A stretch of DNA of 64,000 nt, taken from Nitrospirota bacterium (GTDB lineage Bacteria; Nitrospirota; Nitrospiria; Nitrospirales; Nitrospiraceae). The stretch covers positions 310,001 through 374,000 of the forward strand of contig JAPLLG010000007.1 of NCBI GenBank assembly GCA_026387665.1. The letters are read 5' to 3'. The position numbers and the translations under genes were made by a program. Of this stretch, positions 9,136 through 16,874 are shown one piece after another (within the stretch, counting starts at the first letter, position 1; the number at the start of each line of letters is the position of its first letter). The notes under the pieces were generated by a model that ran no database searches, was not told the origin of the DNA, and worked only from the letters and a program-made list of their open reading frames with translations.

Positions 9136-9262
9136 CAGGAATGCTGAAAATGTCCCCCAGCGTCGTTCTCAGTCGCCCGTCTCCCTGCAACGTACCCCAA
9201 GGGTACGCTTCGGTCGCCGAGCTCCCTGCGGCCTTGCCGGGATGCCATTTTGAGCATCCTGC
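9135..9262 (+). repeat. Family A 3'-UTR palindromic element, copy 3
   Basis: The stop TAG of ahcY flows directly into GCAGGAATGCTGAAAATGTC, and the element ends CATTTTGAGCATCCTGC (128 bp). The central hairpin is CGTACCC-CAA-GGGTACG. GCGGCCTTGCCGGGAT in the right arm matches GCGGCCTTGCTGGACG of other copies. Confidence 0.9.
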
Positions 9263-9504
9263 ATTCGGACAGAGTTCGGTGAATGCGCGGAGCTGAGAAC
9301 AGTCTTCACAGCACCTCAGCAAGAGAATAAACGGAAAGGCCACTGGAAACGGTGGCCTTTTTGTTTAGGCTCAAGGGAACGGCGCCTGACACCTTCTTCC
9401 ACAACAGAAATACTGATCGATACAGCAACTTGACGAGTTTGTCACTTAGCCTTTAGTCTTTCCCTCAAGACTCTTATGAATCCCAGAGAACAACCCCTGC
9501 TATC
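9136..9504. other. 369-bp gap: repeat, terminator, then upstream region of the HEPN gene
   Basis: The gap holds family A copy 3, a spacer, an intrinsic terminator at 9335-9367 and about 140 bp of AT-richer DNA before the HEPN-domain gene. I see no open frame with a ribosome binding site and no tRNA. The composition shift begins right after the terminator, so this is a likely left boundary of acquired DNA. Confidence 0.6.
9335..9367 (+). terminator. Rho-independent terminator downstream of ahcY
   Basis: AAAGGCCAC pairs with GTGGCCTTT (9335-9343 with 9352-9360) around an 8-nt loop, and the T tract TTTTTGTTT follows. This is a canonical intrinsic terminator for the metK-ahcY transcript. Confidence 0.9.
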
Positions 9505-10932
9505 ATGAGAAACAAGACACTTGGAGCCCTAGTTCGCCGAATTGTTTACCAGTTTGGATATGACTTTTGTGCCCATTATAAATATCCGTTGACAGCATTC
9601 ATCTCTGCGCAGACAGAGTCCACAGACGTACGCGCAATCGCTTCCCGTGGGTGGTCTCAAGAGGAGATACAAGCCAGCCTCCGAAGTATTCTCTCGCAAG
9701 ATGTTCATCTTCTGAAGTGCTGCGGTGATCCCTGGCATTTGGCTCAAGCTATCGACATTCTTTTCCTCCGCAAGTTAAGCAGTATTCACTTTACCGTGGG
9801 TGATGCGCTACCTGATACGGAGCCAGACATTCTGGATACCGCAATTGCAGAATTAGACAACCAACTCTACGAACAGGGAGAGTTTCAAAAGTTTGCGTGC
9901 TTTCACCTGTTCAATGTGAAGTTTCTCCCAGAACACCTAATCCAACCGCCCTATGACGGGTGGGTAATAAAGGAGCTCGACGGCACAGCAGTCCCTCGCC
10001 TGCTTGGAGAGTCATCCCTTCATAGCTTTATCAGTCCTCCATCAACTGGCACATGGTTCTTGATCTGCAAAGATACTAATGGATTTGAGACTGAACGACT
10101 TTACGAGTGGCTTGTCCGACGGTGGAAAGAGGCTCAGCCATTTCGTCAAGTCTTTCAGTATGCCGTCGACGGCATTCTGGACATTGACTATGTGGCGCCT
10201 CACTTTTCACCAGATTGGGTTAATGAAATTCAGAAATCTGGCTTGTCCTATCTAGGGCTCCCTCGCCAAGATACCGTTCCCTCGCACTTGATCCCCCATC
10301 TAACCGGGAATGAGCAAGAACAAATTAATCGAATGTGGCGAGTTTACACTCGCCATCGGACCCGTATTATCGAAGTAAATCACTCGCTCCGGAAAGCTCT
10401 TAGGATCGCAGGCGAGTTCTTTGAGGATTATCATCGAAAAGCTAATAGGGTGGAGCAGTTTACAAGTCTCATGATCGCACTTGAAGCTCTATTCACTCCA
10501 TCAGATCAAGCCGAGCAGACCTTTCGTATTTCTCTGAGCTGTGCGCTACTCGCGTGCGAATCTCATGACAGTGACGGAAGGCAGGCGGTGTTCGAGTTCT
10601 TGAAGAAAATGTTCAAGCGCAGAGGAAAATTGTTCCATGGACAATTCGATAGTTCGGAGGAATCCCCAGATAAACTTGCATCTGATGAGGAGATAAGCCA
10701 GCTAGCTTCTCTTGTACGAAAGTCAATTCTTCGATTGCTAACAATGTACCTACAGGGCGACAACGACTTAGAGATTCTCAGAAAGAACTTGCAAAAGGCA
10801 GCACTGGATGAAGGCTTACGTAATGAGCTATTGAGAAAGGGTGACTACAAAGAATTCATGGATGACAGTCAGGGTCTCTTACTGTCACTGCCGGAAAAAG
10901 GAAATCAGGTACAGAAAACAGAGCCACTCTAA
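9505..10932 (+). CDS. HEPN-domain protein (ApeA-like C-terminus), possible RNase/abortive infection
   Basis: I do not recognise the whole 475-aa protein. The C-terminal part (about residues 315-430) resembles the HEPN domain of ApeA-type proteins: FTSLMIALEALFTP, a helical stretch, then KKMFKRRGKLFHG. This contains R373-x4-H378, the Rx4-6H catalytic motif of HEPN ribonucleases. The N-terminal ~300 residues show no motif I can name. No membrane segment is visible. Codon and base usage are clearly more AT-rich than in the neighbours, suggesting transfer. It is co-directional with the VapBC and ZorAB-like genes downstream. A role in phage defence is inference from domain and context only. Confidence 0.6.
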   Translation: MRNKTLGALVRRIVYQFGYDFCAHYKYPLTAFISAQTESTDVRAIASRGWSQEEIQASLRSILSQDVHLLKCCGDPWHLAQAIDILFLRKLSSIHFTVGDALPDTEPDILDTAIAELDNQLYEQGEFQKFACFHLFNVKFLPEHLIQPPYDGWVIKELDGTAVPRLLGESSLHSFISPPSTGTWFLICKDTNGFETERLYEWLVRRWKEAQPFRQVFQYAVDGILDIDYVAPHFSPDWVNEIQKSGLSYLGLPRQDTVPSHLIPHLTGNEQEQINRMWRVYTRHRTRIIEVNHSLRKALRIAGEFFEDYHRKANRVEQFTSLMIALEALFTPSDQAEQTFRISLSCALLACESHDSDGRQAVFEFLKKMFKRRGKLFHGQFDSSEESPDKLASDEEISQLASLVRKSILRLLTMYLQGDNDLEILRKNLQKAALDEGLRNELLRKGDYKEFMDDSQGLLLSLPEKGNQVQKTEPL

Positions 10933-11199
10933 ATTTCCTAATGCCGCAGGTGGTGGTACTGGCGGGGGCGGAGATCACTGGGAGCGCGGGGCCCCGCCGA
11001 TGATCTTAAGGCGGAAACTGACCGAGCCTGCGAGGGAATTTCCGAAATCGCTCTGCCTCCCATTCTGGTGCCTTGTCACGGAAAAATTACTCAGCACTGA
11101 GGATCGACTTATTTCAGCCCCCTCGGTTTGCTCTGAACCATACGCCATCGGCTATCAGCCATACGCTCTTCGCAAAAGCCCCCCAATCTTCGCATCCGT

Positions 11200-11228
11200 T
11201 TGACGAGCCAGGATCTGCACTGTACAAT
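11200..11228 (+). promoter_or_regulatory. Sigma-70-type promoter of the toxin-antitoxin operon
   Basis: TTGACG at 11200-11205 and TACAAT at 11223-11228 are separated by exactly 17 bp. The antitoxin start lies 44 bp beyond the -10 box. The operator directly abuts the -10 box. Confidence 0.8.
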
Positions 11229-11258
11229 GTGCATCACTATGATGCACCTATGATGCAC
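11229..11258 (+). promoter_or_regulatory. Antitoxin operator: palindrome plus third half-site
   Basis: GTGCATCACTATGATGCAC is a perfect dyad with an 8-bp half-site and a 3-bp spacer. It is followed 3 bp later by another TGATGCAC half-site. The array overlaps the start of transcription, as expected for autoregulation by a ribbon-helix-helix antitoxin. GGAGG for the antitoxin follows immediately. Confidence 0.8.
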
Positions 11259-11272
11259 GGAGGCCTGACGCC

Positions 11273-11533
11273 ATGAAAGCCATTACATTGCGGAACCTTC
11301 CCCCCGACGTTGCCCGTACCGTTCAACAGCGGGCCAAGCAGAAGAAGACCAGTGTGAATAAGGCCGTCATTGAGCTGCTGGAAGAATCGGCAGGAGGCAA
11401 GGGGAAAAAGAAAACACCGGTCCGCTACCATGACCTCGACTATCTCGCCGGAACCTGGACGAAACAGGAAGCCGCCGCGATCGATAAACTCATTGCCGAG
11501 CAACGCACGATCGATCCGGAGCTCTGGAAATGA
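11273..11533 (+). CDS. VapB/FitA-like ribbon-helix-helix antitoxin
   Basis: The protein is 86 aa. The N-terminus MKAITLRNLPPDVARTVQQR with KTSVNKAVIELLEE is the short strand plus two helices of an Arc/MetJ-type (FitA-like) DNA-binding domain. The C-terminal half should wrap the toxin. GGAGG precedes the ATG, and the stop overlaps the toxin start by 4 nt. It should repress its own promoter through the dyads at 11229-11258 together with the toxin. Confidence 0.85.
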   Translation: MKAITLRNLPPDVARTVQQRAKQKKTSVNKAVIELLEESAGGKGKKKTPVRYHDLDYLAGTWTKQEAAAIDKLIAEQRTIDPELWK

Positions 11534-11931
11534 CCAGGCTACTGCTGGATAGCTCCGCATATATCGCGTTCAAGAAAAACCACCCCGACGTGATCACCAC
11601 CCTTCCACAAGCTGAAGAGATCTGGATCAGCCCGATTGTCCTCGGAGAGCTTCGCGCGGGATTTCTCCAAGGAAGCAAACGAGAAAGCAATGAGCGCGAG
11701 TTACGAATGTTTCTGGAATCCTCGCGCGTTCGCCTGCTGACAGTGGACGAAGAGACATCGGAACGGTATGCGACCATTCGTGTCGCCTTGAAAAAGGCCG
11801 GCACTCCGGTTGCCGCCAACGATCTCTGGATTGCCGCCAGCGCCATGCAACATGGGCTTCCAATCCTGACGTCCGACCGCGACTTTCAAAAAATCCCCCA
11901 GGTCATCGTTCTCCACTTCCCATCAATCTGA
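11530..11931 (+). CDS. VapC-family PIN-domain toxin
   Basis: This 133-aa PIN-domain protein keeps the acidic metal-binding set: D7 (LLLDSSAYIAF), E40 (IVLGELRAG), D98 (AANDLWIAASA) and D116/D118 (LTSDRDF). VapC toxins are Mg-dependent ribonucleases that typically cut tRNA or rRNA. Translation is coupled to the antitoxin by an ATGA overlap. All catalytic residues appear intact, so the pair is probably functional. Confidence 0.9.
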   Translation: MTRLLLDSSAYIAFKKNHPDVITTLPQAEEIWISPIVLGELRAGFLQGSKRESNERELRMFLESSRVRLLTVDEETSERYATIRVALKKAGTPVAANDLWIAASAMQHGLPILTSDRDFQKIPQVIVLHFPSI

Positions 11932-12176
11932 AAGCGACGAACCACACACCCTCGCTCTGCTTTACTCCAAGCCATTAGCCATACGCTCCCCTAAGAGGCC
12001 TAATCTGCCGGTTGCTAGGCAAAGAATGCCTGGCCCCTACGGAACAGATCCCGCGAAATAGACGGATCATGGGCTTTTTGATGGGTCCATCCTCTATTGT
12101 GCGCGGCACGGAAGTTGAGATGACTTTACCTAATCTTGCCGCTAACTGAGTCCATCATGCATGAATTGAGGATGCG

Positions 12177-13406
12177 ATGATCACGACGTCCAGCCTGTGG
12201 GAATTTTTGAGCCGCGATGCCTCCTTCTTCGGAGGGCCCCAAAGCCCGATGCTGAGCTGGATCGGATCGTTTAGCATCATCTTCTTTTTTCTCTGGCAGG
12301 TCCTACGATTACGCAGGGAAGTCGCTAGCGCGCAACGACCCTTCGATCGAGTCCGCCCGATGCTGACGGCTCTGGCTCATGACCGCGGCGACGGCGATCG
12401 TGAGCGATTCACAAGCCGCGCGCTGGTGGGATTCTCGGCTCAGGCTAGTCAGCCGGCATCCTCCTCTACCCGTATCGATTGCGACGACCTGCAGACCCTT
12501 GAAAAGGGTCTGCAGAAAGAACCCATGTTCCGGCAGGCCTGGGCGCAGTTCCGCAAGACCTTGGTGCTCGAACATGTGCCCTGGTTTGTGGAGCCTCGCA
12601 TTTTCAGCACCTGCCGGGCGGAAGAAATCTTTACGCAGGATATGCTTCTGAGCCATCGCGTGAACCTGGCCTTCTACAGCCAACTGCCTTCCCTGGTGAC
12701 CGGCATCGGGTTGCTGCTCACGTTCCTGGCCCTATTCATTGGCCTCAGCAAACTCCACGCAGACGGTCATGACATTGACGGCATTCAGGGGCTGATCAAC
12801 GGGCTGGCGGGAAAGTTCCTCACCTCCATCGTCGGACTGATTGCCGCGAATCTCTTCACGCTCATTGAAAAACCGATGGTCTTTCGGCTCATGAACGAGC
12901 ACCACACGTTCCTCGGTCTCCTCGACGAGCTCTTTCCCCGCAAGACCATGGAACAGATGTTGGAACAACTCACGCCGATGCACCGCGCGGCGGGAAGCAA
13001 CCGGCAGGCCCCGGGGGAAGAGCTTGAGGAGCGCACCGAAGACAGGGGCAAGGACAGTCTGGCGGCCCCCATTGCTGAACTGGCTGCGGCTGTCCGGTCC
13101 TTGATGCAATGGAAGCAGGAGGAACAGGCAGCGGGACGACGGATGACGGCAGAACTGCCGCAAGTTATCCGTGAGGAATTCACAGCTCCGATCACAGCGC
13201 TGAACGCCTCGATTCAGCGCCTCACCACATTGCTGAAAGATATGCCACGACAGAAGGCACAAGAACCGAGGACCCTTGATGAACTCATGAGCCGCCTGAC
13301 GGACGGGCTCGCGAAGCAGCGAACGTCTCCCGGGGCCGCGCAGCCTGAGGAACACCGATTTATACCCAGACGCTCGCTCGTATCCACGGAGGGGCCGACC
13401 TCATGA
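12177..13406 (+). CDS. ZorA/MotA/TolQ-like proton-channel subunit
   Basis: This 409-aa membrane protein has one hydrophobic segment near residues 26-44 and two more near 170-190 (SLVTGIGLLLTFLALFIGL) and 212-232 (GKFLTSIVGLIAANLFTLIE). The paired arrangement matches the MotA/TolQ/ExbB channel fold. The P-x-L-x-x-G-x-G-L-L-x-T-F-L sequence and a long helical cytoplasmic tail (residues ~240-400) resemble ZorA of Zorya defence systems more than flagellar MotA. GAGG is 5 nt before the ATG. The stop overlaps the ZorB-like start by 4 nt. No ZorC, ZorD or ZorE gene follows. A TolQ-like role not tied to defence remains possible. Confidence 0.65.
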   Translation: MITTSSLWEFLSRDASFFGGPQSPMLSWIGSFSIIFFFLWQVLRLRREVASAQRPFDRVRPMLTALAHDRGDGDRERFTSRALVGFSAQASQPASSSTRIDCDDLQTLEKGLQKEPMFRQAWAQFRKTLVLEHVPWFVEPRIFSTCRAEEIFTQDMLLSHRVNLAFYSQLPSLVTGIGLLLTFLALFIGLSKLHADGHDIDGIQGLINGLAGKFLTSIVGLIAANLFTLIEKPMVFRLMNEHHTFLGLLDELFPRKTMEQMLEQLTPMHRAAGSNRQAPGEELEERTEDRGKDSLAAPIAELAAAVRSLMQWKQEEQAAGRRMTAELPQVIREEFTAPITALNASIQRLTTLLKDMPRQKAQEPRTLDELMSRLTDGLAKQRTSPGAAQPEEHRFIPRRSLVSTEGPTS

Positions 13407-14080
13407 AACGCACAACCACGCAGGGCACCGGGCCCTCGCAGACGACCCTCGGCATCACCGATCTCATGACCTCCCTCGTGGTCGTCTTCATCCTGCTCTT
13501 CGCGGCGCAGTTCAGCAAAGTCTCTTCTGCTGCGCAGTCTGAATTACAAGACAACAAAGAAGACGTGCAAACGGCTCTACGCGATCACATTCAGCGCCTG
13601 GGGCTTTCGCTTGATGCGGATCCCCGCGACCCGCTCGCGCTCGTCATCGTGGTCCCGGAGGACCGGCTCACATTTGAGTTTGGGAAAAGTACGCTCTCGC
13701 CTGCGGCGGATCAATTTCTCGTGGACGCCTTGCCCTTCTATGTACGAGCATTGTGCGGGCCGCTGCGCGACAAGATCGACTCACTCGCGATCGAAGGGCA
13801 CACCGACGATTACGGCAGCGATGCGTTTAATTTGAAGTTGAGCCAGGAACGGTCGCTGGCCGTGATGGTGAAGGGGCTGGAAGTCATTCAAACCGCGGAA
13901 CCATATTCGTACCAGTGTTTTCAGGAAATCACGTCAGCGACAGGACGAGGAAGACAAGACCTGATGTACGAATCCACCTCCGTCATCAACCGCGAGAAAA
14001 GCCGCAGGGTAATCTTCAAGATTCGTCTCCGCTCCGCCGAACAGCGGCATCAGACCGAGCAATCCGCCAAGGGTCTGTAA
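13403..14080 (+). CDS. ZorB/MotB-like OmpA-domain stator subunit
   Basis: The 225-aa protein has a single N-terminal transmembrane helix beginning ITDLMTSLVVVFILLFAAQF. D20 sits where MotB and ZorB carry the proton-binding Asp (compare DFMT/DLMT motifs). Residues ~88-200 form an OmpA-like peptidoglycan-binding domain with IEGHTDDYGSDAFNLKLSQE. The last stretch is basic and polar. It is translationally coupled to the ZorA-like gene, so the pair probably forms a 5:2-type ion-driven motor that pushes on the cell wall. Family membership is established by motif; the specific Zorya assignment is inference. Confidence 0.68.
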   Translation: MKRTTTQGTGPSQTTLGITDLMTSLVVVFILLFAAQFSKVSSAAQSELQDNKEDVQTALRDHIQRLGLSLDADPRDPLALVIVVPEDRLTFEFGKSTLSPAADQFLVDALPFYVRALCGPLRDKIDSLAIEGHTDDYGSDAFNLKLSQERSLAVMVKGLEVIQTAEPYSYQCFQEITSATGRGRQDLMYESTSVINREKSRRVIFKIRLRSAEQRHQTEQSAKGL

Positions 14081-14188
14081 TCCTCTCCCACTCTCTCTGC
14101 TCAGACATAGACAGGCCGATACGATCTTCACCCGCTGAAAGGAAGCGACTCTTGCCGATCGCGGCAGGGCTCTCACGGCGCTGAGATT

Positions 14189-15196
14189 TTACGGCTTGGG
14201 TTGCTGAGGAGACGCTTGATGACAGGCTGCGCTAATCGCACAGGGCGTGGCACAGGGGTGACTGGTTGCCAATTGAGATTGACTGCTCCTGCGAACCATT
14301 TCAGCGCCGAGGAGAATGATGGCGCCACCCACCACCGTGCCGGGCTGGATCGTCTCACCCAAATATACGTGGGCAAAAAGAATGGCACATACAGGGGCCA
14401 GGTTCTGATACACCGCAACGGTCGCCGGGCAGATGGTTTGAAGCGCACGATAGCGCAGGAGGAAAACGGAGGCCGTGGCCACGCCAATGTAAAGCATCGC
14501 CGATACCAGCGTCAGCGAGAAATCGTCGGTGGGAGGCTGTCCCCAGACTGACGCCCCGAACAGAAGAAACAGAGCGCTGCTGCCGAACATCACGGTATTG
14601 GCGGTCATGGCTCCAAAGCGCTTGACGATATTGGCGCTCCAGGCCAGGTGCGCGGCCATCATGACCGTAAACAAGAGAATCAGCAGATCGCCTAATCCAA
14701 AATCTGCCTGAAAGTCGCCCAACTTATCCGACATGGCAAGCCCGCAACCCGTCAATGAGAGTGCGATGCCGGCCATCTTGAGGGGACAGCTCTGGCTCTT
14801 CCCCAGCAACACACTCAGCAGTGCGGTAAGCGGCGAAACCATACTATAAATCAAAATGTAATGCGTGGCGCTGGTAAGCTGAAGCCCCCAGGCCGCAATC
14901 ACATATGAACCAACCCCCAGCCCCCCCAAGAGGGTCAGCCGAAACACATCCCCGGCTGTCAAGGCGCTCAGCCCTCTGATGTCCTGCGCGAGGGTAATCG
15001 CAAATAGAAAGAAGAATCCGGTCATCACCCTGACCAGAGCCATGCCAAGCGGATCCACCGTGCTGTGTTGAAAGACATACTTCGTCAGAATCGGCACCGT
15101 GCTGAGCAGCAGAACTGCGCTGAGGAGGCACACGACTGGCTCGACGTGAGACGCCGCGCCTGCCGGACTGTTCGACTCCTCGTGGGGCGTGGCCAT
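14189..15196 (-). CDS. EamA/DMT-family transporter
   Basis: This 335-aa protein has about ten hydrophobic segments in two repeats, typical of EamA (drug/metabolite transporter) carriers. Examples are VVCLLSAVLLLSTVPILTKY, and in the second half GDLLILLFTVMMAAHLAWSA and AVYQNLAPVCAILFAHVYLG with ETIQPGTVVGGAIILLG. The PxxA/ETxxxxxxxGxxLI ending is the family signature. The substrate cannot be told. It starts 3 nt after the PilZ gene stop, so the two are probably one transcript. The polar C-terminal tail of ~25 residues is Cys/Pro-rich and unusual. Confidence 0.85.
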   Translation of the reverse strand: MATPHEESNSPAGAASHVEPVVCLLSAVLLLSTVPILTKYVFQHSTVDPLGMALVRVMTGFFFLFAITLAQDIRGLSALTAGDVFRLTLLGGLGVGSYVIAAWGLQLTSATHYILIYSMVSPLTALLSVLLGKSQSCPLKMAGIALSLTGCGLAMSDKLGDFQADFGLGDLLILLFTVMMAAHLAWSANIVKRFGAMTANTVMFGSSALFLLFGASVWGQPPTDDFSLTLVSAMLYIGVATASVFLLRYRALQTICPATVAVYQNLAPVCAILFAHVYLGETIQPGTVVGGAIILLGAEMVRRSSQSQLATSHPCATPCAISAACHQASPQQPKP

Positions 15197-15199
15197 AAA

Positions 15200-15523
15200 T
15201 TAAAACCCGGTAAGGTTGAGGACGTTCAGCTGCTCGATAAACTGCGAAAGGCATTGCTGGTGCTCAGGAGAAATCCTCGTAATGCGGGCGCCAAGTTGAG
15301 GAGACGCCACGTAGGTGACCTCGACGGTGCACTGGATCGGAGCCTCCTTGGTCAGAGGAAACTCAAGCTCCAAGAGGTCTCCCATGACCACAGGCAAATC
15401 AGTGCGTAATTGAAATCCCTTTTCCGTGAGGTCGAGCACCTCGCAGGAAGCGGTCTCGGCCCCTTTGGCAATCTGCCCGGTCCTCTCGATAGCGACTCTG
15501 AAGAATTCACGTTTCTGACTCAT
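15200..15523 (-). CDS. PilZ-domain protein (c-di-GMP receptor type)
   Basis: The 107-aa single-domain protein has KREFFRVAIERTG near its N-terminus (RxxxR motif) and LDLTEKGFQL (D/NxSxxG-type motif with Thr for Ser). These are the two c-di-GMP-binding signatures of PilZ. ATG at 15523 is preferred over an upstream frame because AAAGG lies about 11 nt upstream. It is followed immediately by an EamA transporter, whose link to c-di-GMP is unknown. A second PilZ protein is at 51424. Confidence 0.82.
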   Translation of the reverse strand: MSQKREFFRVAIERTGQIAKGAETASCEVLDLTEKGFQLRTDLPVVMGDLLELEFPLTKEAPIQCTVEVTYVASPQLGARITRISPEHQQCLSQFIEQLNVLNLTGF

Positions 15524-15765
15524 AGCGCGACCAACCTTTCGTCCCTCCTGCACACAACACATTTTCCCTTCCCCTTAGCCTGGCGGCTAATGAGAAAGAG
15601 CCATTCCTTCAAAAGTATAGCAGACGGTGAATAGGCCCCTATCTGTCGCTCCGTAGGCTGTAACCTATCAAGGGGAATTTGACGGAAAGAAACCGAATAG
15701 TGTCTACTGTACCCATCCGGCCCGCGAAGAACTTTCAATAAATTCATGCCCTTGGAGTGACACCC

Positions 15766-16731
15766 ATGGATAGTCCATATCGCTACGACCCAGCGCTGGC
15801 GCGGCTGCTCATCCTGGATGAGCTCTTCGACCTCTCCCTCTACAAAGTGCTACGGGACATTTCGGCGGATCCCGAGGCTAGGGATACATTGAGCCAGTTG
15901 GTGGTGATTGAAACCAGACACTTAGCTTTTTGGCAAAAATTCTTCGACATGAAGCTGGAGCGCCTCAACCTGGCGCGACGACTGAAGCTTTGGAGCTTCA
16001 CATGGCTCTGCCGCCTGTTCGGTTCGACGGCGATCCATCTCGTCCTGGAAGCGATCGAGATCTATGGGGTTAAAAAATACCTTTCCCTCTGGAATGCGTA
16101 TAAAGATCAGCCTCTGGGCGAAGCACTCAAGGGGATTCTACGGGACGAGTTCCAACATGAAGATGCCCTTGTTGCCAAACTCACTGCGCGCAAGATCAAT
16201 CCTGAAAAGATCCGCAATATCTTCCTGGGACTCAATGACGGATTAGTGGAGATTCTTGGCGCGGTGAGCGGATTCTTCGGAGCCTTCGGCGACGCCGTGA
16301 CCGTCTTGATTGCCGCCTCAACCACTGCAGTGGCCGGCGCGCTGTCGATGGGAGCCGGCGCATTTCTTGCGCTGAGCTCAGAAAAAGAAGTACGGACGAT
16401 GGAAGCGGCGAAGAAACAATTTCTGGGGGAAGAAACCAGCTCGAACGACATGCAGGAACAGCCGTTACGCTCGGCCTTATTTGTCAGCGTAGCCTACGTC
16501 ATCGGCGCGCTGGTGCCGGTGCTCCCCGTCCTCTTCGGCGCTAAGGACGCGCTGATTTCCGTCCTGACGGCCGGCACGATGGTCGTCCTCGTGTCCACGG
16601 TCCTCGCGTTTTTGTCAGGGATGGAGATGAAACGCCGGATTCTGCTGAATCTCGCAATCATCACCGTAGCGGTAACCGTCAGCTATGGAATTGGGTTGGC
16701 AGCGAAACAGATCTGGGGAATTGCGGTCTAA
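15766..16731 (+). CDS. MbfA-like membrane ferritin/VIT1 (CCC1) fusion protein
   Basis: This is a 321-aa two-part protein. Residues ~1-150 are a rubrerythrin/ferritin-like four-helix region with scattered E/H ligands (LILDELF, ETRHLAFW, LEAIEIYG, RDEFQHED). Residues ~155-321 form a VIT1/CCC1 metal transporter domain with GLNDGLVEILGAVSGFFGAF, which matches the family motif. The organisation resembles MbfA, the iron exporter with a cytoplasmic ferritin domain. It probably detoxifies iron or manganese. GGAG lies about 9 nt before the ATG; GTG at 15757 is an alternative. Confidence 0.8.
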   Translation: MDSPYRYDPALARLLILDELFDLSLYKVLRDISADPEARDTLSQLVVIETRHLAFWQKFFDMKLERLNLARRLKLWSFTWLCRLFGSTAIHLVLEAIEIYGVKKYLSLWNAYKDQPLGEALKGILRDEFQHEDALVAKLTARKINPEKIRNIFLGLNDGLVEILGAVSGFFGAFGDAVTVLIAASTTAVAGALSMGAGAFLALSSEKEVRTMEAAKKQFLGEETSSNDMQEQPLRSALFVSVAYVIGALVPVLPVLFGAKDALISVLTAGTMVVLVSTVLAFLSGMEMKRRILLNLAIITVAVTVSYGIGLAAKQIWGIAV

Positions 16732-16745
16732 CGAAAAACCATCTT

Positions 16746-16873
16746 GCAGAATGCTCAAAACGTTCGTCCAGCAAGGCCGCAGGCGGAGCAAGAACCGGAG
16801 GCGTACCCTCAGGGGTACGTTGAGGATTCTTGCGAGACGAGAACGAAGCTGGCGGACATTTTCAGCATCCTGC
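16746..16873 (-). repeat. Family A 3'-UTR palindromic element, copy 4
   Basis: Read on the minus strand, this 128-bp element starts one nt after the stop of the radical SAM gene and runs GCAGGATGCTGAAAATGTCC to TTTTGAGCATTCTGC. The central hairpin is CGTACCC-CTGA-GGGTACG. A flanking stem GCAAGAATCC/GGTTCTTGC corresponds to AAGCATCC/GGTGCTT in copy 1, again with paired changes. Confidence 0.9.
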
Positions 16874-16874
16874 C

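Follow-up and report, generated by a model that had tools for sequence, protein, structure and literature searches.

What does the motor of an anti-phage system do in a genome that lacks the rest of the system? The window, a stretch of 64,000 nucleotides from a Nitrospirota bacterium, raises this question, as it carries two genes whose top profile matches are ZorA and ZorB of the Zorya system (Table 1). The original prediction was that this is an orphan pair that either serves a new defence layout, perhaps with the HEPN-like protein upstream as its effector, or else does something different in this phylum. The second alternative is better supported. Because the ZorA tail is short and none of Zorya's DNA-attacking partners is present, the pair looks like a defence-type motor that has been put to other, resident work in the cell envelope.

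Table 1. Positions in the window of the gene pair, its conserved parts, and the surrounding region
Feature	Position	Strand	Remarks
Variable-cargo region between metK-ahcY and radical SAM-sucDC	9136-16874		in genus g1
HEPN-like gene	9505-10932		RGKLFH motif
FitA/VapB-like antitoxin and PIN-domain toxin	11273-11931		
ZorA-like A subunit	12177..13406	+	409 aa; N-terminal segment, TM1, Zorya-type cytoplasmic domain, TM2, TM3, short tail
N-terminal segment before/at TM1	12177..12266	+	residues 1-30; motif WEFLxRD...GG..SPxLSWxGS
ZorA T182 codon	12720..12722	+	invariant in 40 ZorA
ZorA S217 codon	12825..12827	+	invariant in 40 ZorA
Cytoplasmic tail	12972..13403	+	residues 266-409; poorly conserved; predicted helices 296-354 and 367-383
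ZorB-like B subunit	13403..14080	+	225 aa; single membrane helix and OmpA-type peptidoglycan-binding domain
Overlap (ATGA) of the two genes	13403..13406	+	4 nt
ZorB D20 codon	13460..13462	+	invariant in all aligned rows
ZorB C118	13754..13756	+	invariant in short family
ZorB R150	13850..13852	+	peptidoglycan-binding arginine; invariant
ZorB C172	13916..13918	+	invariant in short family

Both open reading frames and their short overlap are present as predicted, and so is the resemblance to ZorAB. The best PADLOC matches are ZorA1 for the A subunit (E 7.6e-24) and ZorB1 for the B subunit (E 1.9e-39), and the B subunit also matches the OmpA domain (E 3.4e-8). The A subunit scores 66.7 bits against ZorA_2 from NCBIfam, which does not reach that profile's own cut-off of 100, and it has a weak hit to MotA_ExbB from Pfam (E 0.012, under the cut-off). 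Among sequences in the PDB, the top matches of the A subunit are the E. coli-type and Shewanella ZorA, and those of the B subunit are the three solved ZorB. The predicted structures give the same picture: the A subunit aligns to solved ZorA with Z of 14.7, as compared to about 9.5 for ExbB/TolQ, and the B subunit aligns to solved ZorB with Z of 12.8 and 11.8. According to a published account, two cytoplasmic helices and a beta hairpin set Zorya-type A subunits apart (PMC12505986). These are visible in our model of the A subunit, whose mean pLDDT is only 62, with helices predicted at residues 101-126 and strands at 129-132 and 141-144.

In a tree of 52 A subunits that was rooted with TolQ/ExbB, the short ZorA (those with tails like the one in the window) and the long ZorA are united with support of 100/100, while TolQ/ExbB form a separate clade (100/100). 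The 25 short ZorA form a clade with support of 99/99, which rises to 100/100 if the B subunit is added. In the best tree, the nearest kin of the short clade are long ZorA from Nitrospirota (97/92), and four of their loci (L092, L095, L179, and L181) hold ZorC-like and ZorD genes. Taking sequence, model, and rooted tree together, the pair belongs with ZorAB and not with TolQR, ExbBD, or MotAB, as was anticipated.

Key channel and peptidoglycan-binding residues of the motor are kept. T182 and S217 of the A subunit are the counterparts of channel residues T147 and S184 of the E. coli-type ZorA. In the B subunit, the aspartate that binds ions is D20, which matches D26 of the E. coli-type ZorB, and R150 corresponds to R159 there, with the caveat that several of these residue assignments rely on the titles of PDB entries. 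D20 lies at the start of the membrane helix, as had been noted from the sequence, and is invariant in 24 homologues from short pairs. Few if any rows of the alignment deviate from the N, L, R motif of the peptidoglycan-binding domain (N143, L146, and R150). In the N-terminal segment of ZorA, D14, P24, S27, and G30 are invariant across 20 aligned homologues. Values of dN/dS are 0.03-0.11 for the conserved core, 0.04-0.23 for the N-terminal 100 residues, and 0.11-0.32 for the tail. Judging from the alignments, then, the channel residues and those that bind peptidoglycan are intact, and purifying selection acts on them. Also, the A and B genes are side by side at every locus where both are intact; given this and the low dN/dS of the core, we do not think that the pairing is due to chance. 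The two periplasmic cysteines of the B subunit, C118 and C172, might form a disulfide. Outside of the short family, both are present only in the ZorB of L092 and L095.

The short pair thus shares with the ZorAB of type I Zorya (8qyd, 8vvn) its clade, channel residues, ion-binding aspartate, peptidoglycan-binding residues, and A-then-B gene order. It differs at E86 and E89, the two glutamates that are altered in the calcium-site mutant (8qyh), which are Q and K here. We considered whether the short family could be told by the absence of these glutamates, but several of the long relatives lack one or both of them as well.

A larger difference is in the tail. The A subunit was predicted to be long-tailed, and this alone in the original description does not hold: just 147 residues follow the channel, as compared to 373-587 in 15 long ZorA, so for a ZorA this tail is short. 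Across 25 short proteins, the range is 139-186. Even the ZorA of type II Zorya, which is shorter than that of type I, still has a tail of about 278 residues in S. kujiense (PMC11890865). At core identities of 0.4-0.5, the identity of the tail is 0.15 for short pairs and 0.30 for long ones (a bin of just 16 pairs for the long), so by this comparison the constraint on the sequence of the short tail is relaxed.

The description of the pair as an orphan holds up, both nearby and across the genome. None of the annotated genes beside the pair is ZorC, ZorD, or ZorE, and none resembles ZorF or ZorG of type III. Neither the ZorC marker PF15611 nor ZorD was found anywhere in the genome of the window (G000), and the genome-wide search with the ZorE profile gave a single weak match of 48 residues, about the size of an HNH domain. 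Other genomes of the order show the same split: PF15611 is missing from all 12 of the tested genomes that have the short pair alone, while it is present in 7 of the 8 tested genomes that have a long ZorA. Several relatives encode a helicase that matches just part of the ZorD profile, and the ZorE profile yields only short, HNH-sized matches. So the short pair stands apart from type I, with its ZorC and ZorD, from the long ZorAB of its own phylum (L092, L095, L179, and L181), which sit in operons with effectors and have long tails, and from type II (8vvi), which shares the 5:2 motor superfamily and a peptidoglycan-binding B subunit but has the nickase ZorE.

The short pair is widespread, within limits. 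It is present in 121 of the 175 genomes of the family, counting one genome per species, some of them incomplete, and leaving out two genomes that have only a long ZorA (G163 and G086). By genus, it is found in 28 genomes of g14, 68 genomes of g16, and 19 of the 32 genomes of g1, which is the genus of the window. A profile search of 396 genomes from the phylum found 90 full-length short proteins, all from families f1 and f2 of the Nitrospirales. So the idea that the pair does something else in this phylum should be narrowed to one order, and there to most rather than all of the genomes of the family. The locus of the pair is fixed within each genus or subgroup and differs between genera. Beforehand, universal housekeeping genes in the genus had been named as a finding that would speak against the prediction; with the pair in just 19 of the genus's 32 genomes, this is only partly the case. 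In contrast to the short pair, which is resident in genera, Zorya is sporadic: long ZorA occur in about 6 genomes of the family, some in complete ZorABCD operons, and one genome (G027) has such an operon alongside a short pair. We also considered whether the short pair might be mobile cargo, but P0001, which represents it, had no match in collections of plasmids and phages. A different query did turn up ZorA on plasmids; these are long, and most are annotated as members of full operons.

Upstream of the pair are metK, ahcY, the HEPN-like gene, and the VapBC-like pair, and downstream are an EamA gene (on the other strand, as had been described), PilZ, VIT1, a radical-SAM gene, sucD, and sucC. 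(The names of the suc genes and the HEPN motif are from reading the sequence.) In two small genomes without the pair (G001 and G029), about 400 bases separate ahcY from the radical-SAM gene, which leaves an empty site. A search for neighboring genes that are common to pair loci across genera found none, and a scan of the region for promoters gave no signal over chance. The HEPN-like gene, which had been proposed as a partner, has no significant match in Pfam, PADLOC, or NCBIfam. It is an accessory gene, present in 4 of the 32 genomes of the genus, and in both of the relatives with strong matches it is on a different contig from the pair. Homologous pairs elsewhere adjoin unrelated genes. Given the sparse distribution and the lack of linkage, we reject the HEPN-like protein as partner or effector, and that branch of the original prediction is not supported. 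A close copy of the VapBC-like pair is also found near the short pair at locus L056.

How did this pair arise? The RpoB tree splits families f1 and f2 cleanly, but in the tree of the pair genus g1 falls with family f2, and g16 is divided. Forcing the f1 sequences together was rejected (AU test, p 0.0016), and so was forcing g16 together. In the deep branches, the conflict with RpoB implies that genes were exchanged within the order or that paralogs are hidden; within genera, inheritance is stable. As for the direction of change, the opposite polarity, with the short family branching first and all long ZorA in one clade, was rejected if the long-branch sequence L191 was included (AU p 0.015) but not without it (p 0.15 and 0.29). 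So we say only that the short pair is probably derived from Zorya, a direction that these trees favor but do not secure. The fuller story, in which the Nitrospirales domesticated an anti-phage motor, stripped of its effectors and its tail, as a resident motor of the envelope, seems to us to have about an even chance of being right.

Overall, we think it fairly probable that the pair encodes a resident, stand-alone rotary motor of the ZorAB clade, most likely from type I Zorya, that now works on the envelope. The solved ZorAB are 5:2 ion-driven rotary motors (PMC11890865). By analogy, five A subunits would ring two B helices, and ions (protons) would pass D20 of the B subunit and the ring of T182 and S217 from the A subunits and drive rotation, with the B dimer anchoring the motor to peptidoglycan. 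The ancestor would have been a type I motor, from which the effectors and the greater part of the tail were lost. Because the channel and the B subunit are the most constrained, and the N-terminal segment is more so than the tail, we infer that its partner is on the envelope side. The parts that are conserved, along with residency, point to a role in the envelope, which might be the maintenance of peptidoglycan or the outer membrane, or the sensing of stress. Counting against a resident motor, the tree of the pair disagrees with that of RpoB, 13 of the 32 g1 genomes lack the pair, and the locus in that genus has variable cargo.

The main rival is that the pair is a resident defence motor, which would sense infection at the cell wall and act alone (for instance, by leaking protons) or with distant effectors. 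Its membership in the Zorya clade, with channel and peptidoglycan-binding residues kept, is consistent with this, as is the variable-cargo region in g1 with its VapBC and HEPN-like genes. Nevertheless, the genome has no ZorC, ZorD, or credible ZorE, the pair has no neighbor in common across genera, and in two genera nearly every genome has it, in contrast to the long Zorya of the family. Furthermore, ZorAB without the other components gives no protection (PMC8565338, PMC11890865), and defence is lost in published mutants that lack the tail of ZorA, the aspartate that binds ions, or the peptidoglycan-binding domain (PMC11890865, PMC8565338). Because the tail is reduced and relaxed and the effector is absent, defence in the manner of Zorya is unlikely, and we consider any defence role to be unlikely. 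We are more doubtful still that a stand-alone ZorAB came first, with the pair as a retained envelope motor and the long tails and effectors of Zorya added later. A single clade of long ZorA would fit with this, and it is not rejected without L191, but in the best trees the short clade is nested next to long ZorA from loci with ZorC and ZorD, and within the phylum the short pair was found in one order only.

The other possibilities seem remote by comparison. Some decay would explain why the effectors are missing and why the tail is short and variable, yet all parts are under purifying selection, the channel most strongly, and the pair persists in 121 genomes of the family; the dN/dS contradicts the idea that this is what is left of a Zorya operon in decay, which we judge to be very improbable. 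The same goes for an ordinary energiser of the TolQR/ExbBD type: the ion-driven 5:2 motor fold and the superfamily are shared, and there is the faint MotA_ExbB hit, but this idea is contradicted by the separate clade of TolQ/ExbB, by the fold comparison, and by the genome's own copies (a TolQ and two ExbB-like genes), and the B subunit bears an OmpA-type peptidoglycan-binding domain. A second flagellar stator is the least credible of all. The pair is akin to MotAB, whose B subunit also has an OmpA-type domain, but the model of the short A subunit has Zorya-type cytoplasmic helices and hairpin, and the distributions do not agree: the genome of the window has the pair and no match to a flagellar MotA-type gene, and G020 has the reverse.

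If we are right, then a defence machine has turned into a resident component of the cell, in bacteria that are important for nitrification; many relatives of the nitrite-oxidising Nitrospira carry the pair. Because motor and effector functions would be separated here, the activity of the ZorAB motor itself could be tested. In the meantime, matches to the ZorA and ZorB profiles in Nitrospira should be left out of any count of Zorya defence systems. We also asked if the pair goes along with ammonia oxidation in genus g1, but the 12 of 32 genomes that have AMO include carriers of the pair as well as genomes that lack it. Finally, the operon in G027 (L097, on contig 96) is a complete type I Zorya, and its ZorA is 60% identical to a plasmid ZorA from Nitrosospira sp. 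NRS527. The likeness of these sequences suggests exchange between nitrifiers.
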